Shown: piece after piece, positions 22,974-42,386 of the stretch
Numbering within the stretch: position 1 is the first letter of the stretch
Layout of the letters: each line of letters begins with the position of its first letter
Source of the DNA: Halovivax cerinus
GTDB taxonomy: Archaea; Halobacteriota; Halobacteria; Halobacteriales; Natrialbaceae
Direction of reading: 5' to 3'
NCBI RefSeq assembly: GCF_024498195.1
Contig: NZ_CP101824.1
Coordinates: 682,001-746,000, forward strand
DNA: 64,000 nucleotides
The notes under the pieces: generated by a model
Databases searched by the model: none
Told to the model about the DNA's origin: nothing
Seen by the model: the letters and a program-made list of their open reading frames with translations, nothing else
Translations under genes and position numbers: made by a program

Positions 22974-23111
22974 CTACGCGGGGGCGAAGCTCTCGTCGCC
23001 GACAGCCTCGGAACAGATCGGACAGCCGTTCGACAAGATAGCCGTCCGCATCGGGCCGTTGATCTCGATGTGCTGGCCACACTCGGGACAGGTGAACTCG
23101 TATTCCGTCAT
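22974..23111 (-). CDS. 45-aa zinc-ribbon protein at the end of the TlpA/SCO operon
   Basis: The product starts MTEYEFTCPECGQHIEINGP and ends SNGCPICSEAVGDESFAPA. It has two CxxC knuckles 20 residues apart. Its ATG overlaps the stop of the TlpA-like gene by four bases (23108-23111), so it is translated with it. It is a paralog of the 46-aa ribbon at 20992. The position in a copper-enzyme maturation operon suggests a role there, but that is inference. Confidence 0.78.
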   Translation of the reverse strand: MTEYEFTCPECGQHIEINGPMRTAILSNGCPICSEAVGDESFAPA

Positions 23112-23776
23112 TTGTTGCTCCGTGCCGTCGTTGCGGTGGCTTCGCTCCGGGTGGTGATATGGGTTACCCCTCGTGACGCCGCCCCGGGTCGCACGCCTGC
23201 GGCCGGGTCACCGCGAGCGCCGCCGTCGTTCCTGGGGTGGTCTTTCGCGGCGGTAACCTGCTCTCGGAGTGCGTCGACGCCGACGTACTCGCTGTGGCGC
23301 CAGACGATCCGATTCTCCGCGTCGAGGACGACCGTGTAGGGGACGCCGGCCGCGTCGAGCGTCGCCGTCAGGTCGAGATCGGGGTCGTGTGCGACCGGCC
23401 AGCGGCCATCGTGGCGCTCCCACCAGTCCGCCACGTCCTCGCGAGTGATCGTGTCGCCGAGCGGCTCGTTCGTCACGGAGACGATCTGGACGTCCGTGTC
23501 GGTCTCGTCGACGAGTCGACCCATGGGCTGCATCTGGCGCGCACAGACGTCACACCAGGTGGCGAATATCTCGACGACGCTGACCCGTCCGCGTTCGGGT
23601 ACCGTCGTGGTCTCGGCCGGGTCGGCAGTTCCCGGGATCGTCGGCAGCTCGATCGGGTCGATCCGCGCCTCCTCGGAGCCGGGACGCCAGCCAGTCGTCG
23701 CCATCGCGCCCGCACCGCCGAGGACCGCGAGGGCGCCGGCACCGGCTATCAGCTCGCGACGACGCATCGTTACCAT
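23108..23776 (-). CDS. TlpA/ResA-like exported thioredoxin
   Basis: The 222-aa protein has a TAT-type leader (MRRRELIAGAGALAVLGGAG) and a thioredoxin-fold domain with VVEIFATWCDVCARQMQPMG (CDVC) and the cis-Pro loop GVPYTVVLDAENRIVWRHSE. A basic, low-complexity tail of about 40 residues follows. TlpA/ResA proteins keep cysteines of CuA or heme proteins reduced outside the membrane. It overlaps SCO1 by seven bases and the zinc ribbon by four. Together they look like a CuA or NirK copper-site assembly set. Confidence 0.88.
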   Translation of the reverse strand: MVTMRRRELIAGAGALAVLGGAGAMATTGWRPGSEEARIDPIELPTIPGTADPAETTTVPERGRVSVVEIFATWCDVCARQMQPMGRLVDETDTDVQIVSVTNEPLGDTITREDVADWWERHDGRWPVAHDPDLDLTATLDAAGVPYTVVLDAENRIVWRHSEYVGVDALREQVTAAKDHPRNDGGARGDPAAGVRPGAASRGVTHITTRSEATATTARSNK

Positions 23777-24618
23777 CCCTCCACGACCGCCCGCGCGTCG
23801 TCGCGAACGGTCTGCGGTGCCGGCGGTCCACCGGTGTACGCTCGCTCGACCAGTCCCGCCCGGTTCACCAGGAGGACCAGCGAAGTGTGGACGAAGTGGC
23901 GCGCGTGCGCCCCGTGGCCACCGTCGGTTTCGTTCGTCGTCTCCGCGGTGTGGCTGGTTTCGTTCGTCGACTCGGCGGTGTGGTTCCCACCCGTCTCGTC
24001 ACCGTCGCCCGGTTCGCCACCGTCGGGATCGTCTCCGCTCTGGTCCGTCGAGTCGGCTCCGTCCACGCGTTCGAAGGCGACGCCGAACGTGTCGTCGACG
24101 ACCGCCCTGGCCCGTGCTGGCGACTCCGGTCGGAGGAAGTACCAGTTGCCCGCGTCGAAGTCGACGCCGAGATCCCGCCCGTACTCGCGCAGGACCGGTC
24201 CCGTATCGTACTCGGGGTCGAATGTGATCGCCTGGAACACGATCTCGTCGGCGTCGCCGCGCTCGGCCGCGTCCGCCTGGACGCGCCGGATCGTCGCTGT
24301 GAGGCCCGGACAGACGGTCGTGCAGCTGGTGAAGACGAACGTCAGCATGGTGTGGCGCGCGCCGACGAACCCGGTGGTCGTCACCGATCGATCCTGCAGC
24401 GGTGCCGGAACCGTCGCGCTCGGGAGCTCGTCCCCGTAAATCGGGTGCGGAACGTCCGTCGTCTTCGCGCGCTCGTGGCCCTCCGGTGGGGCAAGGATCA
24501 GGTCGGTCGACGCGCGCTCTCCGCGTCCGAGACACCCCGCGAGCGTGCCGCCGATAGCCGTCGCTCCGGCGCTCCGGAGCACCGTCCGCCTGTCGATCGT
24601 CGATTGGGTCGTGTGCAT
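23770..24618 (-). CDS. SCO1/SenC copper chaperone lipoprotein
   Basis: The 282-aa protein has a lipoprotein leader (DRRTVLRSAGATAIGG, lipobox LAGC). The SCO fold carries FVFTSCTTVCPGLTATIRR (CxxxC) and, near the C-terminus, ARHFVHTSLVLLVNRAG with the third copper ligand His. An acidic, Thr/His-rich insertion (about residues 195-240) interrupts the fold before that His. SCO proteins deliver copper to the CuA site of oxidase subunit II. A CuA subunit is encoded at 36499, and NirK is encoded two genes upstream, so both are possible clients. Confidence 0.9.
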   Translation of the reverse strand: MHTTQSTIDRRTVLRSAGATAIGGTLAGCLGRGERASTDLILAPPEGHERAKTTDVPHPIYGDELPSATVPAPLQDRSVTTTGFVGARHTMLTFVFTSCTTVCPGLTATIRRVQADAAERGDADEIVFQAITFDPEYDTGPVLREYGRDLGVDFDAGNWYFLRPESPARARAVVDDTFGVAFERVDGADSTDQSGDDPDGGEPGDGDETGGNHTAESTNETSHTAETTNETDGGHGAHARHFVHTSLVLLVNRAGLVERAYTGGPPAPQTVRDDARAVVEGW

Positions 24619-24755: not shown

Positions 24756-25337
24756 TCAGGGTCCCGCCTCGAGCGTCGGCGCCGTACGCTCGTTGAACAT
24801 CGTCAGTGCGTTGACGGCCCGTCTGGGCATCGTCTCCGGCGGATCGGCCATCGCGGGTTCGTCGACGGGGTCGGGCCAGCCGACGACCACGCGGCCGATG
24901 TTTCCCGCGACCTCGTGTGAGGTGCAGACCTGTTGCGTGTCGACGTAGTCGTACACGCCCTCGCGGTCGAACGTGTACGCGAAGGTCTGGCCGGGCTGGC
25001 TGAGTCGACCGCTGCCCCACGGCTCGACGTTGTCGGGCGTCCGGTGGGGCGGGTGGCCGTCGCGATGGTACGCCGTCACGTCGTGGCGACCGGTTTCGAC
25101 CACCCACTCGACGGTCCCACCCTCGACGACGTGGACGACCTGCGGGTCGAACTCGGGGAACGGCCGCGACGTCGTCGTGACCGTGGTCCGTTCGGCCGGC
25201 GTGCCGAGTTCGCCGGCGTTCTCGGGCGGCGACGGGACGGTCGGCTCGTCACCTCCCAGGCAGCCGGCGAGTAGCGCGACAGCGGCACCGCCGCTGGCGC
25301 GGAGCGCGTCGCGGCGATCGATTCGAGTGGTCGTCAT
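24756..25337 (-). CDS. Halocyanin-like cupredoxin lipoprotein with altered axial ligand
   Basis: The 193-aa protein has a TAT lipoprotein leader (DRRDALRASGGAAVALLAGC) and a cupredoxin domain. His in GRHDVTAYH and Cys-His in VCTSHEVAGNIGRVVVG are present. Where halocyanins have Met (PHE.LGM.G), this one has Asn (HEVAGNIG). A C-terminal extension of about 40 residues follows. It lies 93 bp after nirK on the same strand and is the likely electron donor or partner of NirK. The missing Met would raise or lower the potential or change the copper geometry. The start ATG at 25337 is preferred over 25424. Confidence 0.82.
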   Translation of the reverse strand: MTTTRIDRRDALRASGGAAVALLAGCLGGDEPTVPSPPENAGELGTPAERTTVTTTSRPFPEFDPQVVHVVEGGTVEWVVETGRHDVTAYHRDGHPPHRTPDNVEPWGSGRLSQPGQTFAYTFDREGVYDYVDTQQVCTSHEVAGNIGRVVVGWPDPVDEPAMADPPETMPRRAVNALTMFNERTAPTLEAGP

Positions 25338-25430
25338 GGTGGATGTCTCCGTTCGAATGTGGGTCCTGGGGCGCCCGTCGATGGACGCCCCCGTATGGTT
25401 CGACTGACGGGATCTATCCGCCACCGGCGT

Positions 25431-26528
25431 CTACGCGTCCGGGTTGAAGATCTCCGGCTCCTCCTCGCCCTCGACCTGGATCACGCCGAGCATTCCCTTG
25501 CGGACGACCCGACTGAGCGCGTGGTCGACGATCTTGATCGGGCCGGGAACTGGCGTGTCGATCTCCGCCGCACCGACCGACCCGGGGACGACCGGAGTCG
25601 TCTCGACGTATCGGGCGGGGTCTGAGACCATGTCGCCATCGCGGTAGAGCGTCTCCCAGACGTTGCCGATGGCGTGCCAGGAGCTGATGAGGTTCGGTCC
25701 ACCGTTGGCGTGGAAGATACGGACGCGCTCTCCCTTGTCGACGGTAACCGGCCCGTACCCGTTCTCGGTGAAGGCGTACGCTTCGCCGTTCAGGGTGACG
25801 TAGGTCGGCTCCTCGCTGGTCATCGCGTCGTAGTCGAACTCGTGGTGGCCCTTTTCGCCGGGCGCGCCGGACGTGTAGAGTTCGTTCTGTCCGAAGTACA
25901 GTTCGCGGTCGACCTCGGGGAGGCCGTCCTCCGGCTCGACGAGGATCGCGCCGTACATGCCCGCGCTGATGTGCATGTCCATGTCCGGGACCGCACAGTG
26001 GTAGACGTGGACGCCGGGGTACATCGCTTTGAACTCGATCGTCGCCGACTGGCCGGGATCGACCATCGTGTCGTCAGCGCCGCCGCCGGGTCCGTAGACG
26101 GCGTGAAGGTCGATGTTGTGGACCATCATCGCGTCCGTGTCGTTCGTCAGCGTGAGCCTGATCGTGTCCCCGCGTCGCACGCGGATCATCGGGCCCGGAA
26201 CCTGGTCGTCGAACGTCATGTATTTGAACGTGACGCCGGGTTCGATCTCGGCGATACGTTCGGTCGTCGTCACTTCGATCTCGTGGGTCCGCGGGGACGA
26301 CCAGTCGACCGGGTCCGGCAGGTCCGTCGGGTCTGCTGCGATCCGGTCTACGTCCGTGGCCTTCGCGTCCGCCAGGCCCTCCTCGGTCTCGCTCGCCGTC
26401 GGGGGTGGGGTCGCCGCCTGTCCGCCGGGGTCGGTACTACCGTCGTCGAGACAGCCTGCAACCGCTACCGCGCTGGTCGCGCCGAGAGCCGCCAGAAGTC
26501 GTCGTCGGTTGGTGGTGAGGGAAGTCAT
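25431..26528 (-). CDS. nirK: Copper-containing nitrite reductase (NirK)
   Basis: The 365-aa lipoprotein has a leader with lipobox VAVAGC and two cupredoxin domains. Domain 1 has MVHNIDLHAVYGPGG, with the catalytic Asp and the type 1 and type 2 His ligands, and VYHCAVPDMDMHISAGMYG, giving the type 2 His, type 1 Cys, His and Met. Domain 2 supplies SSWHAIGNVWET (catalytic His) and IVDHALSR (type 2 His). All copper ligands are present, so the enzyme should reduce nitrite to NO outside the membrane. It sits in a copper locus (halocyanin, SCO1, TlpA, Cu-ATPase). A CGAA-N4-TTCG site lies 71 bp upstream. The start at 26528 is used; the ORF extension to 26717 is leaderless shadow. Confidence 0.95.
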   Translation of the reverse strand: MTSLTTNRRRLLAALGATSAVAVAGCLDDGSTDPGGQAATPPPTASETEEGLADAKATDVDRIAADPTDLPDPVDWSSPRTHEIEVTTTERIAEIEPGVTFKYMTFDDQVPGPMIRVRRGDTIRLTLTNDTDAMMVHNIDLHAVYGPGGGADDTMVDPGQSATIEFKAMYPGVHVYHCAVPDMDMHISAGMYGAILVEPEDGLPEVDRELYFGQNELYTSGAPGEKGHHEFDYDAMTSEEPTYVTLNGEAYAFTENGYGPVTVDKGERVRIFHANGGPNLISSWHAIGNVWETLYRDGDMVSDPARYVETTPVVPGSVGAAEIDTPVPGPIKIVDHALSRVVRKGMLGVIQVEGEEEPEIFNPDA

Positions 26529-27025
26529 TGTCACATATGGGAGTAGGGGGCTACATATGTTCAATACGGAAGATGATTCCACGACATCGAGAACGCTCCG
26601 AAGCCGTTCGGCGTGAATACGTAAACCTATAAAAAGACACACAGTATGACGCGTCGCTCTCGGGTAGTTTCGGTCCGGAGCGCCGTCTCTATCGTGCGGA
26701 CGGCAGGGTCGAAACAATCCATCGTTGAGTTCGGAGAGGTCGACGGAAACTGTGTAGAATCGGTCGGTCCAGCCGTGTTCAGGACCGATGGGTGCCTGGA
26801 ACAGTTCGGTGTTTATGACACCGGAACTGTCGACGGGCGCCCGAGACGCGTGTCCGTTCGCACGCGCACGGTACGACGGGAGAGGATCGGCAGAGCGACT
26901 CCGGGTCGTCTCCGACGTGGCCGGAACACGTTCGGGGACAACGCCGTGACGGTGACTCCCGTTTCGTCGCGTATCGGCCAGTTAGACACCTCGCGACCGG
27001 TCGGCGGGTCGCGGCCCACTCCACC
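26529..27025. other. Intergenic region between nirK and the DUF3054 gene (497 bp)
   Basis: This holds the nirK promoter: two copies of ACATATG near 26533 and 26553 and a TATA-like region near 26560. It also holds the NarO-type box at 26599 and a strong rightward-looking TATA element at 26626. A 127-aa ORF (26646-27029) is Arg-rich with no recognisable domain and is probably not a gene. Confidence 0.5.
26599..26610. promoter_or_regulatory. NarO-type box upstream of nirK
   Basis: CGAAGCCGTTCG matches the CGAA-N4-TTCG pattern known for the NarO regulator of denitrification genes in Haloferax. It is 71 bp before the nirK ATG. A TATA-like CCTATAAAAAG follows at 26626-26636 on the other side, so the site could also serve a rightward transcript. 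Confidence 0.7.
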
Positions 27026-27551: not shown

Positions 27552-30200
27552 ATGAGCGCCTGCTCACTCTGTGACCTGCCGACACCCGACTCGCCGGTGA
27601 CGGAGCGGGGCGTCGAGGGGACCTTCTGCTGTCGCGGCTGCCTCGAGGTGAGCCGCGCGCTCGACGACGTGGACGGAGTGGATCGGGCGGCGGTTCGCGA
27701 GCGAGCGAGCGCGTCGGACCCTCGAACGGGCAGCGAGGAGGACGGGGCGACGGGACGGATGGCGGACGAACCAGCTCGAGCGGGTGGGAACGAGGCGACA
27801 GCCCAGACGGTAGCCCCGTCCGAGACGACCGGGCGAACCGTCCCCGAGGGCGCCGACGAGGCGTTTCTCGCCGTCGACGGGATGCACTGTGCGACCTGTG
27901 AGGGATTCGTCTCGTTGCTCGGCGAGCGCGAGGACGGGATCGTATCGGTCGAGGCCAGTTACGCGACCGACACCGCACGCGTGGTCTACGATCCCGACCG
28001 CGTCGACGCTGACGCCCTCCCCGAAACGATCTCGGGGTACGGCTACGAGGCGCGGGATCGGGCCGGAACCGGTCGGAACACTCGCACAGCCGAGAATCTG
28101 GTCACGCGCCTGCTCGTCGGCGGCTTCCTCTCGATGCTCGTCATGCCCTGGTACCTGTTCTACCTCTATCCGGGCTACGTCGGAATCGACACCGGAATCC
28201 TCTCGACCGGGGGGACGTCGGCGGCCGGAACGTACGTCCCGCTCGCGATGATCGGGCTGTTCTCGGGCGGCGTGCTCTTCTACACCGGGTATCCCATCTT
28301 GCGCGGGGCGTACGTCAGCGTCCGCGTCGGTCGGCCGAACATGGACCTGCTGATCGCCGTCGCAGCCGGGTCGGCCTACGCCTACAGCACGCTCACACTG
28401 GCTGCAGGGGGCATCCACCTCTACTACGACGTGACCGTGGCCGTCGTCATGGTCGTCTCACTCGGCACGTACTACGAGGGACGGATCAAGCGGCGTGCGA
28501 CCGACCTGCTCGCGGACGTGACGACCGCGGGCGTTCGCGAGGCTACCCGACGAACGGACGGCGGTGAAACCGAGACGGTAGCCGTCGACGAACTCGCGCC
28601 CGGCGACGTGGTCGTCGTCCGGCCGGGCGAGCGCGTCCCCGTCGACGGGGCGGTGATCGACGGGACGGCCGCCGTCGACGAGTCAGTCGTCACTGGCGAG
28701 TCGATACCGGTGACCAAGCGCCCCGGAGACGCTGTCGTCGGCGGCGCCGTCGTCACCGACAGCGCACTCGTCTGTGAGGTGGGCGATGACGCCGAGAGCA
28801 CGCTCGACCGTATCGCGACCCTCATGTGGGAGATCCAGAGCGCGACGCCGGGCGTCCAGCGCCTGGCCGACCGGCTCGCTGCGATCTTCGTCCCGCTCGT
28901 GCTGGCCCTCGCTGTCGGCGTCACGAGCTGGCGGGTTCTCGCCGGCGCACCGGTCGAAACCGCCGTTCTGACCGGGTTGACCGTCCTCGTCGTCTCCTGT
29001 CCGTGCGCGATGGGGCTCGCGACGCCACTGTCCGTCGCCGCCGGTCTTCGCGACGCGCTCGAACGCGGCATCGTCGTCGCGAACGCGGCGCTGTTCGAGT
29101 CCGCACCGGCCGTCGAGACGATCGTCTTCGACAAGACTGGAACGCTGACCGCCGGCGAGATGACCGTTCGCGAGGTCCACGGCGACCCCGACGCCGTCGA
29201 GCGCGCCGCGGCCGTGGAACGCTACTCGACCCATCCCGTCGCCGACGCGATCGTGGCCCACGCCGCGGACTCGACACCGGACGGCGCGACCGACGGGAAC
29301 GGGTCCGGAGACGGGATGGAACGTACCACCGACATCGCGGCCGACGGCGGGGTCGCGACCGAGGAGCCCCACGGGACGCGCGAGGGGGACACCGGTTCCG
29401 GCGGCAGTCGCGCACGAGACTTCGAACGGCACCCTGGCGAAGGCGTGAGTGCCGTCGTCCCCAGCCCGTCGTGCGACGATACAGGGGCCGTTGGCGAGAC
29501 AAGCGACGATACAGTCGGCGAGCGGGTCGTCGTCGGCACGCCAGCCCTCGTCGAGCGGCTCGTCGGTCCGGTTCCCGACGCCCTCGCGGAGGTCATCGAC
29601 GGCGCGCGGGACCGGGGCCACCTGCCGGTCGTCGTCGGGTACGACGGTCGGGCGCGAGCCGTCGCCGTGGTCGGCGATCGGACCCGCTCGTCCTGGCGGT
29701 CGGTGCTAGAGGCCGTCGCGGACCGCGAGGTCATCGTCCTCACCGGCGACGACGAGTCGGCGACTGCGACGGTCCGGGATCACCCGGCGGTCGACCGTGT
29801 CTTCGCCGGCGTTCCACCGGACGGGAAGGTCGCGACCGTCCGGCGACTCTCCCAGGAGGGTGTGACAGCGATGGTCGGCGACGGAACCAACGACGCGCCG
29901 GCGCTCGCCGCCGCGGACGTCGGCATCGCTCTCGGCACCGGCACGGCGCGGGCGACGGACGCCGCCGACGCGGTCCTCGCGTCGGGCGATCTGACGGCCG
30001 TCCCCGACGTCTTCGCGCTCGCGACGGGAACCCGACGGCGAATCCACGAGAACGTCCGCTGGGCGCTCCTGTACAACGCGGTCGCCATCCCGCTCGCTGC
30101 CGCAGGCCTCATCAATCCCCTCTTCGCCGCGCTCGCGATGGCCGGCAGTAGCGCTATCGTCGTAGCGAACGCGTCGCGGCCGGTGTTCGACTCCTCCTGA
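27552..30200 (+). CDS. Copper-translocating P1B-type ATPase, FixI/CcoI-like
   Basis: The 882-aa ATPase begins with a Cys-rich metal-binding region: [13 protein letters not shown], then [15 protein letters not shown], the layout seen in FixI/CcoI. A heavy-metal-associated domain with [12 protein letters not shown] (about residue 112) follows. It has eight helices with the transport motif [20 protein letters not shown], the phosphorylation site [11 protein letters not shown], the [10 protein letters not shown] motif and the hinge [18 protein letters not shown]. The nucleotide-binding domain contains an acidic insertion (about residues 575-655). FixI-type pumps export copper for assembly of copper enzymes rather than for detoxification, which fits the neighbouring nirK and CuA genes. 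Confidence 0.9.
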
Positions 30201-34751: not shown

Positions 34752-36497
34752 TCAGGCGCCGATCGACCAGAGCTGGGTGAGGAGGTACCAGTTCAACAGG
34801 TACGTGATCACGAACGCGGCCAGGAAGACCAGACAGAGGACGAACGTGCCCCGCATCTCGTAGGCGTGGACGGGGTCGTCGGGATCCTCGGCCATCGCTA
34901 ACCCCCCATCAGCGACGAGATCGGACACGCCGTCCCGTCCGTCGATCCGCTTTCCGAACAGGAGCGATCCGACCGCGAGCAGGACGAACAGGACGCCGGC
35001 AGCGATAGCCAGCAGCGCGAAGACGCCGAAGATGGCGAACAGCGGGCTCGCCGCGGAGAGGCTGAACTCGGTGCCCGGGATGGTCTCGACGACCTCGACG
35101 GTTCGGCGCGGGACGCCGTAGAGGATACCGACGTACATCATCATGAGGACGGCCACGCCCATCGCGCCCGCGTAGAGGAACGGCTGGGCACTCGCCAGTC
35201 GGGTCGAGAGCCACTGGCGCCCGAACATGGTCCTGATCAGGAAGAAGATGAGACCCATGAACGCGATCGTGGTGCCCAGGACGACCGTCGCGTGGAAGTG
35301 CCCCACCGTCGCGAACGTGTTGTGCCAGGTCATGTTGAGCTGGAGCTGTCCCATCATGACGCCGGTGGTCCCGCCGAGGAAGCCAAAGAGGATGATCGAG
35401 AAGATCGTCGACGAGAAGACGGGGTTCCCCCAGGGAGCGGAGGTGAGCCAGCCGAAGAGACCGCCGCCCGTGCCGCGCTTACGACGACCAGCCTCGATAC
35501 CGGCCGGGATGGCGAACGCGTGGATCAGACTGGCGAACGTCGCCCCGTAGAACGCGTAGGAGGTGTTCCAGATGCGCCACCCGGTCGAGACTGCGGGGTC
35601 CGACAGCAGGTGGTGGGCCGCCCCGAGGTTGATGAAGAAGAGATAGAGGATGAAGGCCGTCCGCGAGACCTTCTCGCTGACCACTTCCGCGCCTGCGACG
35701 ACGTGGGTGAGGAAGTACCAGACCGTGATCATCGCGACGAGGTTGATCTGCTGGGTACCGTGACCGACGATCCAGTACATCTGCCGGTACCAGGCCGCGT
35801 CGACCCACTCGATGATCTCGAAGCGCCAGAGCATCGCCGGGACGAACGCGACCAACCCGCCGACGAGCGCCTCGACGGCGATGATCGACGTGACGAACGC
35901 TCCGAAGGCCACCAGCGGGAGCGTCTTCCCCGGATTCTCCCGCTTCTCGTGCCACATCGTGACGAAGAACGGCAGCGCGGCGACGACCGTCCCGACGATG
36001 AAGAGGCTCGCGGCGGCGTAGAACCACGGCGAGACGGGCATCGGGACGTAGGCAGTCAGGAGCGGGGCCTCGTTAGGCGCCGACGTCGTCCAGATGGTGT
36101 AGTTGACTGCGACCGCACCGGCGACCATCGTGACCCAGCCTGCCGTCGCCACCTTCGTCCACGGCAGTCTGCGACCCAGCACCATCGGCCCGCCGACGTA
36201 GAGGATGGCCACCTCCGTGAACACCATCCAGAAGATGAGCAGGTTCCAGGCGTGCATGCTCAGGTGCGTGTAGAAGGCGTCAGGGCCGAGGAGGCCGATC
36301 GCCTCCCACCGGGTCGTCGCGACGGTGAACGCGAAGATCCCGCCGACGAGCAGGGCGACGACCGCCGTCAGCCCGAACAGCTTCACGTGGTTCTCGACGG
36401 TGTGGTGGATCCGGAGCCCGGTCACCGAACACGTCCGGAAGCCCTCGTCGTCGTACTCGTTGTCGAACAGCCCGAGGACGTCGTAGCTGTGGGCCAT
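34752..36497 (-). CDS. Heme-copper reductase catalytic subunit with NO-reductase-like active site
   Basis: The 581-aa protein has about 13 helices and all heme-copper signatures but one. LSMHAWNLLIFW gives the low-spin heme His. INLGAAHHLLSDP gives two active-site metal His. VGHFHATVVLG gives the two heme His. The helix VI motif is WIVGHGTQQINLVAM: the His is present, but the Tyr of HPEVY, four residues on, is Gln. Without the His-Tyr cross-link, O2 reduction is unlikely. Nitric oxide reductases lack that Tyr. With CuA subunit II next door and nirK in the same window, an NO reductase of a non-classical, CuA-bearing type is the best call. It ends an operon with 36499 and 37049. Confidence 0.8.
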   Translation of the reverse strand: MAHSYDVLGLFDNEYDDEGFRTCSVTGLRIHHTVENHVKLFGLTAVVALLVGGIFAFTVATTRWEAIGLLGPDAFYTHLSMHAWNLLIFWMVFTEVAILYVGGPMVLGRRLPWTKVATAGWVTMVAGAVAVNYTIWTTSAPNEAPLLTAYVPMPVSPWFYAAASLFIVGTVVAALPFFVTMWHEKRENPGKTLPLVAFGAFVTSIIAVEALVGGLVAFVPAMLWRFEIIEWVDAAWYRQMYWIVGHGTQQINLVAMITVWYFLTHVVAGAEVVSEKVSRTAFILYLFFINLGAAHHLLSDPAVSTGWRIWNTSYAFYGATFASLIHAFAIPAGIEAGRRKRGTGGGLFGWLTSAPWGNPVFSSTIFSIILFGFLGGTTGVMMGQLQLNMTWHNTFATVGHFHATVVLGTTIAFMGLIFFLIRTMFGRQWLSTRLASAQPFLYAGAMGVAVLMMMYVGILYGVPRRTVEVVETIPGTEFSLSAASPLFAIFGVFALLAIAAGVLFVLLAVGSLLFGKRIDGRDGVSDLVADGGLAMAEDPDDPVHAYEMRGTFVLCLVFLAAFVITYLLNWYLLTQLWSIGA

Positions 36498-36498
36498 C

Positions 36499-37044
36499 TC
36501 AGCTCCCCTCCGTCACGACGATCGTGCCGTGCATCGTCCGGTGGCCCTGCCCGCAGAACTCGTTGCAGATGATGTGGTAGGTGCCCGGCTCGTCGAAGGT
36601 CATCGGGACGACCCACTCGTAGCCCGGCAGCACCTGCAGGTTGATCTGCTTGCTGAGCGCGTCTTCCGGTCGCAACGAGAAGCCGTGCTGGACGTCCATC
36701 GAGTTCAGGTGGATGTCGTACTCGGTGCCGGCCTCCAGGACGACCGGCGCGCCGTCCCAGTAGAACCGCATCGCCTGGATGTAGACGTCCGTCCCCGGTG
36801 GGACGAGCCCCTCGTCGGTCTCCGTCGCCGCATCCTTGTAGGCCGACAGCTTCTCGCGAAACGCCTCGGCCTCGATCCGATAGGTCTCGCCGATGGGGTT
36901 CTGGTCACCGGCGGTGGTCCAGACGCTCATCCAGCCGAAGAGGATCACCGACCAGATGGCCCCGAGCCCCAGCCAGATCGATTCGCGCCGGTCGACCGGC
37001 TGACTCCACCAGTCGCCCTCGGGTGGTTTGAGTGGTGACGTCAT
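36499..37044 (-). CDS. CuA-containing subunit II of the heme-copper reductase
   Basis: The 181-aa protein has one N-terminal helix (RESIWLGLGAIWSVILFGW) and a cupredoxin domain outside. The binuclear CuA site is complete: His in SMDVQHGFSLRPEDAL and CNEFCGQGHRTM with two Cys, the backbone Glu, His and Met. It accepts electrons, probably from a halocyanin, and passes them to subunit I, whose ATG lies just past its stop. The start at 37044 is chosen because the longer ORF to 37131 adds Arg/Ser-rich shadow. SCO1 and TlpA at 23-24 kb probably assemble its copper. Confidence 0.9.
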   Translation of the reverse strand: MTSPLKPPEGDWWSQPVDRRESIWLGLGAIWSVILFGWMSVWTTAGDQNPIGETYRIEAEAFREKLSAYKDAATETDEGLVPPGTDVYIQAMRFYWDGAPVVLEAGTEYDIHLNSMDVQHGFSLRPEDALSKQINLQVLPGYEWVVPMTFDEPGTYHIICNEFCGQGHRTMHGTIVVTEGS

Positions 37045-37048
37045 CTGA

Positions 37049-37204
37049 TCACCCCGCAGGGACCGAGAAGACGTCCGCCCAACCCCACCCGACGTACGAG
37101 ATCGCGAAGAACGCGAGGGCGGCTGCGGCAAGTAGCCATATTCTGTCGTAGAGCCGTTGCATCACGGGGACCTCGTCGGTTGGGGTCGAGTCGTCCGGAG
37201 TCAT
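37049..37204 (-). CDS. 51-aa single-helix subunit of the heme-copper reductase operon
   Basis: The product starts MTPDDSTPTDEVPVMQRLYD and has one helix (IWLLAAAALAFFAISYVGWG) ending in VFSVPAG. It ends four bases before the start of subunit II, so it is the first gene of the operon. Many B-type and related oxidases have a one-helix small subunit in this position. Its start at 37204 gives the first ATG with a compact leader; ORF readings from 37252 are longer. Confidence 0.72.
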   Translation of the reverse strand: MTPDDSTPTDEVPVMQRLYDRIWLLAAAALAFFAISYVGWGWADVFSVPAG

Positions 37205-37353: not shown

Positions 37354-37613
37354 GGCTCTGGGCGACCACGTTCGGTCCACGGCTCTGGACGACCTCGTTC
37401 GATCCGCGACCCTGGGCGACATCGTTCGGTCCACGGCTCTGGACGACCTCGTTCGATCCGCGACCCTGGGCGACATCGTTCGGTCCACGGCTCTGGGCGA
37501 CCTCGTTCGATCCGCGACCCTGGGCGACATCGTTCGGTCCACGACTCTGGGCGACATCGTTCGGTCCACGACTCTGGGCGACATCGGTTGCTCCGCGACT
37601 CCGGACGGTGTCG
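37354..37613. repeat. 27-bp tandem repeat (minisatellite) upstream of the heme-copper operon
   Basis: Nine complete 27-bp units run from 37354 to 37596 with no spacers, then a partial tenth. Two alternating unit types begin GGCTCTGGACGACCTCGTTC and GACCCTGGGCGACATCGTTC. The 37205-37676 gap holds the operon promoter near 37205-37260 and this array. Because 27 is a multiple of 3, several frames stay open across it, but none has protein-like context. It is not a CRISPR array, since units are contiguous. Confidence 0.88.
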
Positions 37614-37676: not shown

Positions 37677-39251
37677 TCAGGCGAACACGAGCGTCTCGAC
37701 GACGATGGCGACGAGTATCGCGCCGAGGTAGTAGTTCGAGACGTAGAACGATCGAAGTGTGCGCTCGTCGGTGGGGTGGCGGTACTGCCGGAGCACCGAC
37801 CGGAGGAAGACTCCGCCGAGTGCGATCGACGTCACCGTGTAGAGCCAGCCGAGCCCGGCCACCCAGCCGAGTGCGCTCGCCGCCAACAGCGTCGCGCCGA
37901 GGTAGAGTGTGAGCTGGCGTCGAGCGGCGGCGACCCCTTCCACGACGGGGTACATCGGGAAGCCCCCACGCGCGTAGTCGTCACGGAATGCGATCGCGAG
38001 GTTGTAGAAGTGCGCGGGCGTCCACAGGAAGATCACCGCGGCGAGGCCGATGGCCGGCCAGCCGACGTCGCCGGTGACGGCGGCCCAGCCGATGACTGCC
38101 GGGAGTGCACCCGCGCCGCCGCCGAGGACGGTGTTCCACGCCGTATTCGGCTTCAGTACCACGGTGTAGAGCACGGCGTAGTAGCCGATGGCCGCGAGCG
38201 TCAGCGCCGCCGCGAGGACGTTCGTCCACGTCACGAGGACGGCCATCGAGGCGACGACGAGCGCGACGCCGAACACCAGCGCGTTCCCGACCGGAACCAG
38301 GTCGTGAACCAGCGGCCGGTCGTTCGTCCGATTCATCTTCCGGTCGCGATCGCGCTCGTAGACGTGGTTGAACGTCCCGCTTGCGCCGATCGCGAGGACG
38401 CCACCCGCGAGCGTGGCGAGGACGGTCGTCGCCGTGAGCGTCGCGCCGGTCAGCGTGGCCAGTCCCATCCCGGCGACGGCGACGAGACAGAGCAACCACA
38501 TCAGCCGCGGCTTCGTCAGCGTCAGGTACGCACCCGCGAGGCGGCGAAGCCCGGAGCGCCCGTCGTTCGGTGTGTCGACCTCGGCGTCCGGATCGACGCT
38601 CGGATGCTCCGATGGGCCCTCCACTGGCTGGTCGGCACTCGAACCGACCGACGGATCCGCCACTGGCTGGTCGACGTACGTCTCGACTGCCGGCTTTTCC
38701 CCCGTCCTGTCGTCGCCTGCACTGAGAACCGACTCCGCCCCAGTTGGGTCCACGCTGGACGCCTGATCACGCCTCGCATCCGCCGCCGTGTCGAGCGTCC
38801 AGACGAGCGCGACGAGGAGCGTCGCGAAGATTCCCATCGCGAGCACGAGGTGGACAGTGTTCGCCAGCGACGGTCCACCGACGACGATGAGCGCGCCGAG
38901 GCCCACCTGTACCGGAAAGGCGACGACTGCCGCGTAGACGGCCACGCGGATACGCCGACCGAGCCTCGCCCGTCGAACAGCCAGTCCCGACGCGGCGACC
39001 AGCAGGCCGGTCACCAGCGCCGCCGCCCGGTGGGCCCAGAAGAGGAACTGATCGCCGGAGAGCGGTCCGAACGTCGGATCGGTCCCGCAACTCGGCCAGG
39101 TCGAACACGTGGTTCCGCCGCCTGACGAGACGGCCGTCCCGAGCGCGACGAGCGCGTACGCCGCGATCGTCGTGACCGCAAGCAGCGTGGCGACTCGAAA
39201 GCGGGCACCGCTGTCGGGATCGAAGCCGTCCGCTTCGAGTGTGCTACGCAT
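37677..39251 (-). CDS. ctaB: Fused heme A synthase-like / protoheme IX farnesyltransferase (CtaA-CtaB)
   Basis: The 524-aa protein joins an N-terminal CtaA/COX15-like half (about residues 20-160, four helices, GTAVSSGGGTTCSTWPSCG, FWAHRAAALVTG) to a C-terminal UbiA-type prenyltransferase (about 240-524). The CtaB motif NHVYERDRDRKMNRTNDRP has the Asp-rich metal site. The second Asp-containing loop is AFRDDYARGGFPMYP. CtaB converts heme B to heme O. The CtaA half appears to be only half of a heme A synthase. The linker (about 165-235) is acidic and Pro/Ser-rich. Its product supplies the heme-copper reductase encoded upstream. Confidence 0.9.
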   Translation of the reverse strand: MRSTLEADGFDPDSGARFRVATLLAVTTIAAYALVALGTAVSSGGGTTCSTWPSCGTDPTFGPLSGDQFLFWAHRAAALVTGLLVAASGLAVRRARLGRRIRVAVYAAVVAFPVQVGLGALIVVGGPSLANTVHLVLAMGIFATLLVALVWTLDTAADARRDQASSVDPTGAESVLSAGDDRTGEKPAVETYVDQPVADPSVGSSADQPVEGPSEHPSVDPDAEVDTPNDGRSGLRRLAGAYLTLTKPRLMWLLCLVAVAGMGLATLTGATLTATTVLATLAGGVLAIGASGTFNHVYERDRDRKMNRTNDRPLVHDLVPVGNALVFGVALVVASMAVLVTWTNVLAAALTLAAIGYYAVLYTVVLKPNTAWNTVLGGGAGALPAVIGWAAVTGDVGWPAIGLAAVIFLWTPAHFYNLAIAFRDDYARGGFPMYPVVEGVAAARRQLTLYLGATLLAASALGWVAGLGWLYTVTSIALGGVFLRSVLRQYRHPTDERTLRSFYVSNYYLGAILVAIVVETLVFA

Positions 39252-39510
39252 CGCGCCAGATCAGCGTCACGACGTCGTCTTCACGCTCGACCGACTCGTA
39301 CGCGTAGCCCCGCTCCTCGAGTTTCGGGAGGAGAAACTGCGGGACGCGGTCGTTTCGCTGGACGAGAACGACCTCGTCGTCAAGCTCGGGCAGCCGTTCG
39401 AGCGTCTTCGCGAGCGGATTCGGCGGCCCCATCGACCGCACGTCCAGGTGGTCACGCGGTCGATCCGCCGGTGCGTCGGTCCGGTCGAACACGCCCTCGA
39501 TCGAGTACAT
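39244..39510 (-). CDS. DUF2249 protein
   Basis: The 88-aa protein shows the DUF2249 pattern: HLDVRSMGPPNPLAKTLERL, then DDEVVLVQRNDRVPQFLLPK and a final strand. DUF2249 proteins accompany NO, hemerythrin and denitrification genes; the reaction is unknown. It overlaps ctaB by eight bases (39244-39251), so the two are probably cotranscribed. The start at 39510 is chosen because a CGAA-N4-TTCG site lies 39-50 bp upstream, the same distance as at the other genes; ATGs at 39543 and 39597 are alternatives. Confidence 0.75.
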   Translation of the reverse strand: MYSIEGVFDRTDAPADRPRDHLDVRSMGPPNPLAKTLERLPELDDEVVLVQRNDRVPQFLLPKLEERGYAYESVEREDDVVTLIWRDA

Positions 39511-39548
39511 GCTCGTCCGTCGGGTCGCCAGCCGTGTGTGCATCCCCC

Positions 39549-39560
39549 CGAACGAGTTCG
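39549..39560. promoter_or_regulatory. NarO-type box upstream of the DUF2249-ctaB operon
   Basis: CGAACGAGTTCG lies 39-50 bp before the ATG at 39510, flanked by a CCC/GGG extension that lengthens the palindrome. The spacing equals that at 40008 and 40154. Confidence 0.65.
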
Positions 39561-39640
39561 GGTGTGCGGGCGCTCGTACTCGTATCACCCGCCCCAACGC
39601 CGCTCACGAGACTGTCGCTCGCTGCGCCAGACCTACTTCC

Positions 39641-39780
39641 GCGCCGCTCACGGCTCCCGCCGGTCGCCGTTCGCCGTTCGAGACCTTCGCTCGCTGCGCG
39701 GGGATTGTTCCGCGCCGCTCACGGCTCCCGTCGGTCGCCGTTCGCCGTCGGAGGCCTTCGCTCGCTGCGCTCGCTCAGGC
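39641..39780. repeat. 71-bp imperfect duplication between the two DUF2249 genes
   Basis: A segment beginning GCGCCGCTCACGGCTCCC occurs at 39641 and again at 39712, ending with CTTCGCTCGCTGCGC in both. Part of it recurs at 39600. Such GC-rich direct repeats are common in haloarchaeal spacers. The second copy runs into the 3' end of the gene at 39775. Confidence 0.75.
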
Positions 39781-40008
39781 CTCCCGCTTCGGAAACGTCG
39801 CTCGAAACTCCGCATCGTCGACCTGTTCGACCTCGTAGCCGTCGGCGTCGAACGTCTCGACTTCGGCCTGGAACTCGTAGAACAGCGGTTTGGGCTCGTG
39901 GTCGTTGACGATCGTGAGGCTCTCACCGTCGTTCAGGTCCTCGAACGCGTCGTGAATCTTCGGGTGGCGCTCCATCGGTGGCACGTCACGGACGTCCAGT
40001 TCTGTCAT
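39775..40008 (-). CDS. DUF2249 protein
   Basis: The 77-aa protein is a clear DUF2249 member: MTELDVRDVPPMERHPKIHD, then AFEDLNDGESLTIVNDHEPK and LFYEFQAEVETFDADGYEV. The conserved RH and NDHEPKPL motifs suggest a metal or ligand site. It is a paralog of the protein at 39244. A CGAA-N4-TTCG site lies 41-52 bp upstream, so it is likely induced with denitrification genes. The function is unknown. Confidence 0.85.
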   Translation of the reverse strand: MTELDVRDVPPMERHPKIHDAFEDLNDGESLTIVNDHEPKPLFYEFQAEVETFDADGYEVEQVDDAEFRATFPKREA

Positions 40009-40102: not shown

Positions 40103-40114
40103 CGAATATGTTCG
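40103..40114. promoter_or_regulatory. NarO-type box upstream of the 40154 regulator
   Basis: CGAATATGTTCG lies 40-51 bp before the ATG at 40154. A weak TATA-like GCTTTTGCC follows at 40122. The spacing suits activation. Confidence 0.65.
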
Positions 40115-40153: not shown

Positions 40154-40828
40154 ATGGCACACGCGACGCTTTCGGTGACGCTGCCCAGGCGTGTCTGGAT
40201 CGCACAGATCTCTCGCGACCATCCGGAGGCGACGTTTCGCGTCCTCGCCGGGGTTCCCGGTCAGGAGAACGGGTTCGCGTTGGTGAACATTACTGGCCCC
40301 GACGTCGAATCGGTGGCCGAGTCGATGGCTGCCCACGACCAGATCACGGAGTTGTCGCCCGCGCAGGTGAGCGAGGGTGAGCTCACGGTTCACTTCGAGA
40401 CGACCGCTCCCCTCCTGCTCTTCTCCTCGAAGGAATCGGGGATGCCGCTCGAGCCGCCGATCGTCATCCGCGACGGCGAGGCGGAGGTCGACGTGACGGG
40501 TTCGCGTGCCCGCCTCTCGGAGTTGGCCGACCAGCTCGAAGCGTTCGGCTTCACCTACCGCGTCGAGCACGTCCGCGAACGGCTCCACGACAGCCAGCTC
40601 CTCTCCGAGCGCCAGCGCGAGGTCCTCGTCGCCGCCGTCGAGGAGGGCTATTACGACACGCCCCGCTGTTGTACCCTCACGGAACTCGCGGAACGACTCG
40701 ACATCGCGAAATCGACCTGCAGCGAGACGCTCCACCGGGCCGAGGAGACGGTCATCAAGCGCTTCGTCGCCGACCTGCCGACGGAGGACCAAGACGGCGA
40801 ACTGGCGGCTGCGCTCGCCGAACCGTAG
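40154..40828 (+). CDS. HTH_10 (Bat-like) regulator in the denitrification region
   Basis: The 224-aa protein has an N-terminal sensor-like domain (LSVTLPRRVWIAQISRDHPE, FALVNITGPDVESVAESMAA) and a C-terminal HTH_10: LSERQREVLVAAVEEGYYDT, LTELAERLDIAKSTCSETLH, RAEETVIKRFV. No Cys cluster is found in the sensor part; three cysteines lie in the HTH (PRCCTLTELAE, STCSETL). It is preceded by two CGAA-N4-TTCG sites, one at -40 and one at the start codon. It may correspond to the second denitrification regulator type (NarR-like) known in Haloferax, but that is uncertain. The ATG at 40154 excludes a promoter-containing extension to 40007. Confidence 0.83.
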   Translation: MAHATLSVTLPRRVWIAQISRDHPEATFRVLAGVPGQENGFALVNITGPDVESVAESMAAHDQITELSPAQVSEGELTVHFETTAPLLLFSSKESGMPLEPPIVIRDGEAEVDVTGSRARLSELADQLEAFGFTYRVEHVRERLHDSQLLSERQREVLVAAVEEGYYDTPRCCTLTELAERLDIAKSTCSETLHRAEETVIKRFVADLPTEDQDGELAAALAEP

Positions 40829-40995
40829 CCGGTAGATGCCCGACGTGGTCACCCGGCGCGTCGTCTCGCAGGGTGAATCGACAGGCTGGCGACTCGTCTT
40901 CGACTGGCGTCGACGCGTCGCGACCCGTTCGTCGCGATTCCCATCGAAGGAGAACTGCACGTGCCACGTAAGTGGCCGACTCATCAACTCTCGGT

Positions 40996-41319
40996 ATGGA
41001 CCTCGGACTCGTCCTGGAGACCAACGACCCCGAACGCGTCTGGAACGCGTTCCGTCTCGCGAACACCGCGCTCGAGGCGAATCACGCGGTCGAAATCTTC
41101 CTCCTCGGAGACGGCGTCGAGGCGCCGGATCTCGAACACGAGAAGTTCAACCCCCACGGCGTCATGGTACAGTACGCCAGAAACGGCGGCGAAATCGCCG
41201 CCTGTGGCACGTGTCTCGACTCCCGCGACCTCGACGCCGACGAGCTTCGGCCCCGGGGAACGATGTCGGACTACCTGCGAATCGTCGAGGACGCCGAGAC
41301 GGTGCTCACGATCGGCTGA
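40996..41319 (+). CDS. DsrE-family protein
   Basis: The 107-aa protein has the DsrE/YchN fold: GLVLETNDPERVWNAFRLAN, LEANHAVEIFLLGDGVEAPD, and the Cys-containing AACGTCLDSRDLDADELRPR. DsrE proteins are small cytoplasmic sulfur carriers or hexameric proteins of unknown activity. The two cysteines (CGTC) could carry sulfane sulfur. A GTG at 40972 is an alternative start. It lies between the two HTH_10 regulators and is probably part of the same neighbourhood. Confidence 0.85.
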   Translation: MDLGLVLETNDPERVWNAFRLANTALEANHAVEIFLLGDGVEAPDLEHEKFNPHGVMVQYARNGGEIAACGTCLDSRDLDADELRPRGTMSDYLRIVEDAETVLTIG

Positions 41320-41404: not shown

Positions 41405-42139
41405 CTAGTCGGCGGCTCGTTCGGCCTTTCGGGAGCGGTCGACGCCCAGCGGGTTACCCGTCGACGTCGCCGTGACGAGGCGCAAGAACTTCCCCGCGTT
41501 CGTGAGCAGTTTGTTCTCGGCCTTTCGGAGGTGCTCTTCGTACGTCGAGCGAGCGACGGCCGTCCTGTCGGCCAGTTCCCGGAGGGAGGTCCCCCGCGGC
41601 TGTTCGTAGTAGCCGCTCTCCAGCGCGAACTGGAGCGCCGCGAGCTGGCGGTCCGTGAGGTCCTCGAACAGGTGACTCGCCGGGGCCAGCATGCTGTGGG
41701 GGATCTGTGTCTCCGAAATCGAGGTCTTCGAGAGGAGTTCGATCTCTCTGTCGCTGCGCAAATCGCCAAGCAGCGCCCGAACGTCTTCGCTATCGAAGGC
41801 GACCAGCGTGTAGTGTTCCCAGCCCTGGCGGTAGATCGTCGGCGACTGGTACAGGCAGTTGTGCGCCTCGAACCGGTCGACGATGGACTCCTCGAGCGAG
41901 CAGAGACACGACTGCGTGACGACGTGATAGCCGTCGTCGTCCGCGGATTCGTGTAGCACGGTTCCGAGCTGGTCGATCTCGTCGAGTAGCGCGTCTGTCG
42001 GCGTTCCCTCCGCGGTGAGTTCGAGCACCTGGCAGTCGGAGAGCGGCCACTCGCGGATCGTCAGGTCCGGATGCCGTTCGGAAATCGCCCGATACGGGCA
42101 CTCGTGTTTGACCCGGATCGAGGCTTCGTACAGGCTCAT
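41405..42139 (-). CDS. HTH_10 regulator with Cys cluster (NarO/DmsR-like)
   Basis: The 244-aa protein has five cysteines in its N-terminal sensor: C14 (KHECPYRAIS), C36 (LSDCQVLEL), C78 and C80 (TQSCLCSLEE) and C95 (AHNCLYQSP). They could hold an Fe-S cluster or sense redox state. The C-terminal HTH_10 is LTDRQLAALQFALESGYYEQ, LRELADRTAVARSTYEEHLR, KAENKLLTNAGKFL. In Haloferax, NarO has a Cys-rich motif and activates nar, nir and nos genes under anaerobiosis through CGAA-N4-TTCG. Such a site abuts this gene's start codon, and five others lie nearby. The ATG at 42139 is preferred to 42181, since the site ends just before it. Confidence 0.83.
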   Translation of the reverse strand: MSLYEASIRVKHECPYRAISERHPDLTIREWPLSDCQVLELTAEGTPTDALLDEIDQLGTVLHESADDDGYHVVTQSCLCSLEESIVDRFEAHNCLYQSPTIYRQGWEHYTLVAFDSEDVRALLGDLRSDREIELLSKTSISETQIPHSMLAPASHLFEDLTDRQLAALQFALESGYYEQPRGTSLRELADRTAVARSTYEEHLRKAENKLLTNAGKFLRLVTATSTGNPLGVDRSRKAERAAD

Positions 42140-42140
42140 A

Positions 42141-42152
42141 CGAACCACTTCG
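42141..42152. promoter_or_regulatory. NarO-type box abutting the start of the Cys-cluster regulator
   Basis: CGAACCACTTCG lies two bases before the ATG at 42139 (minus strand). Its placement matches that at 40141 and suggests autorepression. Confidence 0.65.
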
Positions 42153-42386
42153 GACTGGACAGCCGTAACGGTGCCGGTCATGTCCGGCAGTGCCCATATG
42201 CGAATCTCCCTGTTATTCCGGTATATCGATGCACGCGCTTTCGCCAGTCACACGTCGTAATCGAAATCGAACGCGATCGCAGCCGAACCGGAGCGGAGAC
42301 AGACGGAACCGACGAACACCCTGGTTCGACAGGTACCCCGGAAGCGCCGTCGATGACCGCCACCGACGAGACTGCGCCACCGATCG

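Follow-up and report, generated by a model that had tools for sequence, protein, structure and literature searches.

A probable eNOR-family nitric oxide reductase operon in Halovivax cerinus and the gene that accompanies it

Genes and features of the locus

The window analysed here, that is, the whole stretch of 64,000 nucleotides, lies within a 3.9 Mb haloarchaeal contig of Halovivax cerinus and contains, on the minus strand and in 5' to 3' order, the genes of a 51-residue protein (37204–37049), a subunit II (37044–36499), a subunit I (36497–34752) and a membrane protein here called orf237 (34718–34005). A previous sequence-only reading had delimited a span ending at 37204, which is the exact start of the 51-residue reading frame, and the conserved gene located 3' of subunit I was absent from it. 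Subunit I, of 581 residues, is a COX1 protein (PF00115, 174.6 bits). Subunit II, recognised by COX2/CoxB matches, is formed by one N-terminal helix and a cupredoxin domain, and inspection of its motif, H...C-x-E-x-C-x3-H-x2-M (HGFSL...CNEFCGQGHRTMHG), confirmed the earlier statement that its CuA site is complete; a subunit II homologue adjoins subunit I in 47 of the 48 loci compared, referred to as eNOR loci after the family discussed below. The 51-residue product is a single-helix membrane protein that resembles subunit IIa of ba3 oxidases in position and size. Its homologues are found 5' of subunit II in nearly every eNOR locus in which that region is covered, ending −13 to +3 bp from the start of subunit II in nearly all haloarchaeal, Rhodothermota and Bacteroidota loci (L006–L049), and a similar small reading frame is present at −4 to −35 bp in Thermus, Defluviimonas and Thermomicrobium.

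Next to the operon lies a gene for heme o synthase (CtaB; 37677–39251, minus strand; TIGR01473, 284 bits), whose N-terminal part is CtaA/COX15-like (PF02628, a weak match below the cut-off). It is overlapped operonically by the gene of a DUF2249 protein (39244–39597, minus strand, likely start at 39510; PF10006, 48.3 bits), and a second DUF2249 gene, encoding 77 residues, occupies 39775–40008 on the same strand (PF10006, 86.2 bits). The sequence-only reading was right about the presence of these neighbours, but it had them follow the subunit genes; since they are located 5' of these genes on the minus strand, they precede the operon. Haloferax induces DUF2249 genes when denitrifying (PMC11218638), and a heme o synthase gene also follows eNOR in Defluviimonas and Thermomicrobium.

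Divergent from the second DUF2249 gene is a regulator of the HTH_10 (bacterio-opsin-activator) type (40154–40828, plus strand; PF04967, 68.4 bits), and in the upstream region shared by the two genes the palindrome CGAATATGTTCG (40103–40114) exactly matches CGAAYATDKTYG, the denitrification promoter motif of Haloferax (PMC11218638). The motif occurs once in the window, as this palindrome with 0 mismatches on both strands; 0.12 occurrences are expected in 64 kb, and two matches were obtained in none of 100 shuffles. Across the eNOR loci, 35 sites were counted in 23 of 44, against an expectation of ~1.2 matches, and in several Halorubrum loci the site is placed 30–50 bp ahead of the reading frame of ctaB, which there precedes the subunit genes. 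Another HTH_10 regulator, with an HVO_A0563-type N-terminal domain, is encoded at 41405–42181 on the minus strand (PF24280, 149 bits; PF04967, 72 bits); the DsrE-family gene between the two regulators (40972–41319) has a homologue in none of the 48 eNOR loci.

The intergenic regions contain repeats. Between ctaB and the small subunit gene there is a tandem array (37356–37607) of approximately nine 27-bp units, with a 54-bp super-unit, and each unit has a CGAAC half-site; the same gap is shorter and free of the array in Halovivax asiaticus (L006) and in genome G100 (L076). Between the two DUF2249 genes, two tandem copies of 71 bp that are 93% alike cover positions 39637–39770.

The copper nitrite reductase gene nirK, which the earlier reading had also placed in the window, is found at 25431–26717 on the minus strand (TIGR02376, 379 bits, over the cut-off; also supported by Pfam). 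It is followed on the same strand by Pfam-identified genes for a halocyanin (24756–25424), an SCO1/SenC protein (23770–24618) and a redoxin (23108–23776), the whole group being located 8 kb downstream of the subunit genes, on their strand. A copper-type P1B ATPase is encoded at 27552–30200 on the plus strand (TIGR01511, over the cut-off), and 30 of the 48 loci have a homologue of it in the eNOR flanks analysed.

The active site of subunit I and its family

The closest match of subunit I in the PDB is the Thermus ba3 oxidase (E ~1e-36), and its predicted fold, from an AlphaFold2 model of only moderate quality (pLDDT 75), also matches the T. thermophilus ba3 enzyme best (Foldseek E 2e-14, TM 0.71); the nearest named relative of the gene belongs to Halovivax asiaticus (94% identity). 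The comparison with T. thermophilus ba3 (1EHK) reveals a common fold, a CuA subunit II, a single-helix small subunit and, as the earlier reading had stated, the conservation of every heme and metal histidine, given that the six ligands H72, H233, H282, H283, H384 and H386 all align.

The main difference is located in helix VI (WIVGHGTQQINL), in which the residue at the position of Tyr237, four after the helix VI His, is Gln250 (H246-GTQ-Q250, codons at 35748–35762, minus strand), in agreement with the earlier proposal that Gln replaces the Tyr that becomes cross-linked to the CuB ligand His in oxygen reductases. The proposal had contrasted HGTQQ with HPEVY; the altered motif is real, but HPEVY is the A-family form, and the proper B-family form for comparison is HP(I/V)VY or HAVVY. 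This column contains Gln in the target and in all 48 aligned eNORs, and Tyr in all 12 aligned B-family oxidases, two of which come from the target's own genome. Q249, at the position of V236, and Q250 are both invariant among 30 aligned eNORs, and H-x-x-Q-Q is present in all 14 further bacterial homologues, which were drawn from one phylum. Chance is not an issue, because the Gln never varies among 48 homologues, the most distant of which is 38% identical.

In cbb3 oxidases it is helix VII that supplies the Tyr of the cross-link, from a position six residues ahead of the HH pair. In the eNOR alignment no Tyr occupies that position, which holds an invariant Ile289, and therefore no substitute is evident. 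A single conserved proton channel is expected of eNORs; here the K-path of ba3 is kept in part, with invariant Y261, S274 and S323 in place of Y248, S261 and S309, while T312 is replaced by an invariant H326 and Y244 by Ile (Ile or Val among eNORs).

A variant of another ligand was observed in three eNOR subunits, two from Thermus thermophilus plasmids (L050, L051) and one from a Bacteroidota-side genome (L097, G661), in which GHFK replaces GHFH, so that Lys takes the place of the low-spin heme's distal axial His (H386 in T. thermophilus). Judged from the alignment, this would give a His/Lys low-spin heme. The Thermus eNOR gene is at least 99% identical in most plasmids, and the variant of L097 appears to be a separate occurrence.

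It has been described that the residue at the Tyr site distinguishes the families of heme-copper NO reductases, being Gln in eNOR, Asn in sNOR and CuANOR (bNOR), Asp in gNOR and Glu in cNOR and qNOR (PMC8756737, Table A4). A maximum-likelihood tree of 41 proteins, in which two deep joins between long branches are unsure, separates the Gln proteins from the Tyr-bearing B-family oxygen reductases on a branch with 100/100 support, as the sequence-only reading would have it. The target is placed among Natrialbaceae, then with other haloarchaea, and then with Salinivenus, Bacteroidota and Rhodothermus; deeper in the Gln clade are Thermus, Defluviimonas and Thermomicrobium. Rhodothermus and Thermus are genera counted as eNOR (PMC8756737). 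Plasmid sequences among the matches at ~30% identity had been considered as references for sNOR, gNOR, bNOR or nNOR, and were rejected as Tyr-bearing B-family oxidases.

The earlier reading had proposed a NO reductase of one of the new heme-copper families and had left the family unassigned; the active-site residue, the tree and the neighbourhood identify it as eNOR. The B-family heme-copper core with all its histidines, the Gln in place of Tyr, the adjacent CuA/cupredoxin subunit II and a nearby nirK are shared with that family, and in the catalytic part there is no difference from it. The operon thus very probably encodes an eNOR-family nitric oxide reductase descended from the B-family (ba3-type) oxygen reductases, an enzyme that, to judge from its sequence, would reduce NO. 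With Gln and a CuA subunit II, it differs from cNOR and qNOR, which have Glu together with heme c or a fused quinol subunit. This applies to the qNOR of the same genome (G000:C1:787620-789914; L004), which is likewise a NO reductase of the heme-copper superfamily tied to NirK, but is a single fused chain with a NorB cytochrome c-like domain, contains no CuA and belongs to another branch of the superfamily.

The eNOR family was proposed by Hemp and Gennis in 2008 (as cited in PMC4653789) and was later surveyed and reported in Natronomonas and other Halobacteria (PMC8756737), a haloarchaeal eNOR cluster being published in 2022. The novelty implied by the earlier reading is consequently unsupported, because eNOR in haloarchaea was already in print: the target is an ordinary and complete member of the family in a group of organisms in which it had been reported. 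Reportedly, the enzyme of Rhodothermus marinus was purified and its NO reduction demonstrated by Murali et al. in 2024 (PNAS). A paper citing that work counts eNOR among the biochemically characterised families.

Association with NirK and other readings of the enzyme

The distribution of eNOR was evaluated in 292 haloarchaeal genomes, of which 53 are carriers and 239 are not; the matches to eNOR show 61–100% identity, followed by a sharp gap to oxidases at ~31% and below. NirK is present in 50 of the 53 carriers, three having none, and in 108 of the 239 other genomes (OR 20, p 3e-12), while for the ba3 oxidase, taken as a control, the OR with NirK is 2.7. The association holds within the nine genera that have both carriers and non-carriers (CMH p 5e-9, with species within a genus not being independent); these were tabulated by hand, leaving out g34, g46 and g69, in which NirK is near-universal and there is one carrier each. 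The largest contrast is that of genus g2, with NirK in nine of nine carriers and none of seven non-carriers.

Bacterial eNORs are also found next to genes linked to NO. In Ardenticatena, nirK and eNOR are part of one operon (PMC4653789), and in Thermus the cbcBA pair, an eNOR homologue, adjoins the NO-sensor operon nsrRST, the authors having already suspected NO to be the substrate (PMC7694296). Downstream of one bacterial eNOR (L090, genome G624) inspection revealed an Rrf2-type regulator, a DUF542/hemerythrin-like (RIC-type) protein and a HemN-like protein, which would make it an NO-stress-like neighbourhood; orf237 is absent there.

A different reading is that of an unusual oxygen reductase that still reduces O2 in vivo, perhaps inefficiently, NO reduction being a side activity or a protection under microoxic conditions. 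The fold and all the ligands of subunit I are indeed those of ba3 oxidases, and qNOR is kept by 35 of the 53 carriers, so that a second NO reductase is not always needed. We nevertheless consider it very improbable, given that the cross-link Tyr of B-family oxygen reductases is missing in every eNOR member, that the strict association of eNOR is with NirK, within genera too, and that the genome of H. cerinus already has three oxidases, two of ba3 type and one of A type, that carry the Tyr or exceed the COX1 cut-off. The chance that the enzyme belongs to another group derived from the B-family (sNOR, gNOR, nNOR or bNOR, the CuANOR of Bacillus azotoformans reported from Bacillota only), all of which share that origin and a cupredoxin/CuA subunit II (PMC8756737, PMC11388526), is close to negligible, since the Asn or Asp that, as the sole distinguishing feature used here, sets sNOR, CuANOR and gNOR apart is Gln in all members, and the target groups with the Rhodothermus and Thermus eNORs in a tree whose 41 proteins exclude sNOR, gNOR, bNOR and nNOR references and the R. 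marinus eNOR itself.

As an eNOR, the enzyme would act in a partial pathway. According to family searches, the genome of H. cerinus contains NirK, qNOR and eNOR, no match to NarG, and only cupredoxin-domain matches to NosZ; denitrification is therefore at most partial, and the conversion of nitrite to N2O is its expected span. Because qNOR is also present, the main role in NO reduction may not fall to eNOR in this organism. Among haloarchaeal NirK carriers, eNOR is somewhat commoner where qNOR is absent (17/38) than where it is present (33/120; p 0.04).

The partner gene orf237 and the proposed complex

The gene located 3' of subunit I appears to be an uncharacterised partner of the enzyme. 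It has no match in Pfam at E≤1e-3 or at E≤1, in NCBIfam or in PHROGs; weak matches to Ig domains were obtained for 13 of 36 relatives. The papers on eNOR that were consulted make no mention of orf237 or of the small single-helix gene.

In 42 of the 48 loci, subunit I is followed on its own strand by a homologue of orf237, normally at a distance of 30–300 bp downstream, or else beyond a ctaB-like gene that has been inserted; of the other six, two are contig ends and four are the distant eNORs. Among the haloarchaeal genomes, orf237 is found in 52 of the 53 carriers, the exception being a contig that ends inside subunit I, and the 239 non-carriers contain only two truncated remnants. One of the carriers (G207), of the same genus, has two complete eNOR-orf237 sets at distant sites (L073, L074). 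In one of the two non-carriers with a remnant (L071, G280:C1:2739000-2746500), subunit I is gone and the end portion of orf237 directly adjoins what is left of subunit II, its initial 73 residues, an arrangement that marks a deleted eNOR operon. In one bacterial phylum orf237 accompanies close-clade eNORs (L085–L089), and is absent in the close-clade genome G624 and in eight distant-clade genomes; profile searches detected no homologue in the eNOR loci of Thermus, Defluviimonas, Thermomicrobium and distant Bacteroidota.

In the AlphaFold2 model of orf237 (pLDDT 89.5), a predicted amphipathic helix at the N-terminus is followed by three membrane helices and a C-terminal seven-strand sandwich, for which the fold search returned generic Ig/FnIII domains only. 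By the positive-inside rule, the positively charged loop joining helices 2 and 3, together with the acidity of the final domain, puts the sandwich on the outer, CuA side. Two invariant Cys on neighbouring strands of the model suggest a disulfide. Metal binding by these Cys together with an HCH motif was contemplated and dropped, since the second His is not conserved and the Cys are on neighbouring strands.

These features make orf237 a candidate accessory subunit or assembly factor. The more specific proposal, to which we give even chances, is that it serves the eNOR lineage of haloarchaea, Rhodothermota and some Bacteroidota as a dedicated subunit or assembly factor, as yet undescribed, gained and lost with the enzyme and having its Ig-like domain on the CuA side, and that eNOR would in that lineage be a complex of four proteins (small helix, CuA subunit, catalytic subunit and orf237). 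Co-inheritance of adjacent genes alone could explain part of the pattern, and it is conceivable, though we would not bet on it, that orf237 is a mere passenger kept through operon inheritance with no role in eNOR: the gene is adjacent and co-transcribable, and would therefore be inherited and lost together with the enzyme, and it is absent from one close-clade bacterial eNOR (that of G624) and from the distant clades. Against this, ctaB, DUF2249, nirK and HTH_10 genes differ from locus to locus, but orf237 persists, even where a ctaB gene separates it from eNOR, and no full-length orf237 was found apart from eNOR in the 239 non-carrier genomes.

The working scheme for the enzyme, within the very probable eNOR reading, starts from the observed sequence features, family membership, co-occurrence and promoter motif. 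A soluble blue copper protein, probably halocyanin, would deliver electrons to CuA in subunit II, from which they would pass to the low-spin heme (H82/H402) and then to the centre formed by the high-spin heme (H400) and CuB (H246, H295, H296) in subunit I, where two NO molecules would be converted to N2O. Gln250 would stand in for the Tyr from which oxygen reductases must draw the fourth electron for O-O cleavage, so that the centre would suit NO and not complete O2 reduction. NO would be supplied by NirK, encoded 8 kb away, and the likely source of protons would be the cytoplasm, by way of a K-type path in modified form (Y261, S274 and S323 kept, H326 for Thr). The single-helix protein would pack as the equivalent of subunit IIa, and orf237 would act as the dedicated accessory subunit or assembly factor, its Ig-like domain facing the CuA side.

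The catalytic finding is not new, and the parts worth following are the tight link of orf237 to the enzyme and the conserved small single-helix gene; the former represents a concrete, testable addition to the make-up of eNOR. The family is commonly annotated as cytochrome c oxidase, and therefore hypersaline archaea are credited with too little NO reduction and N2O output, on a scale indicated by the presence of eNOR in 53 of 292 haloarchaeal genomes and by the 17 NirK carriers, devoid of qNOR, in which it is the only recognised NO reductase.
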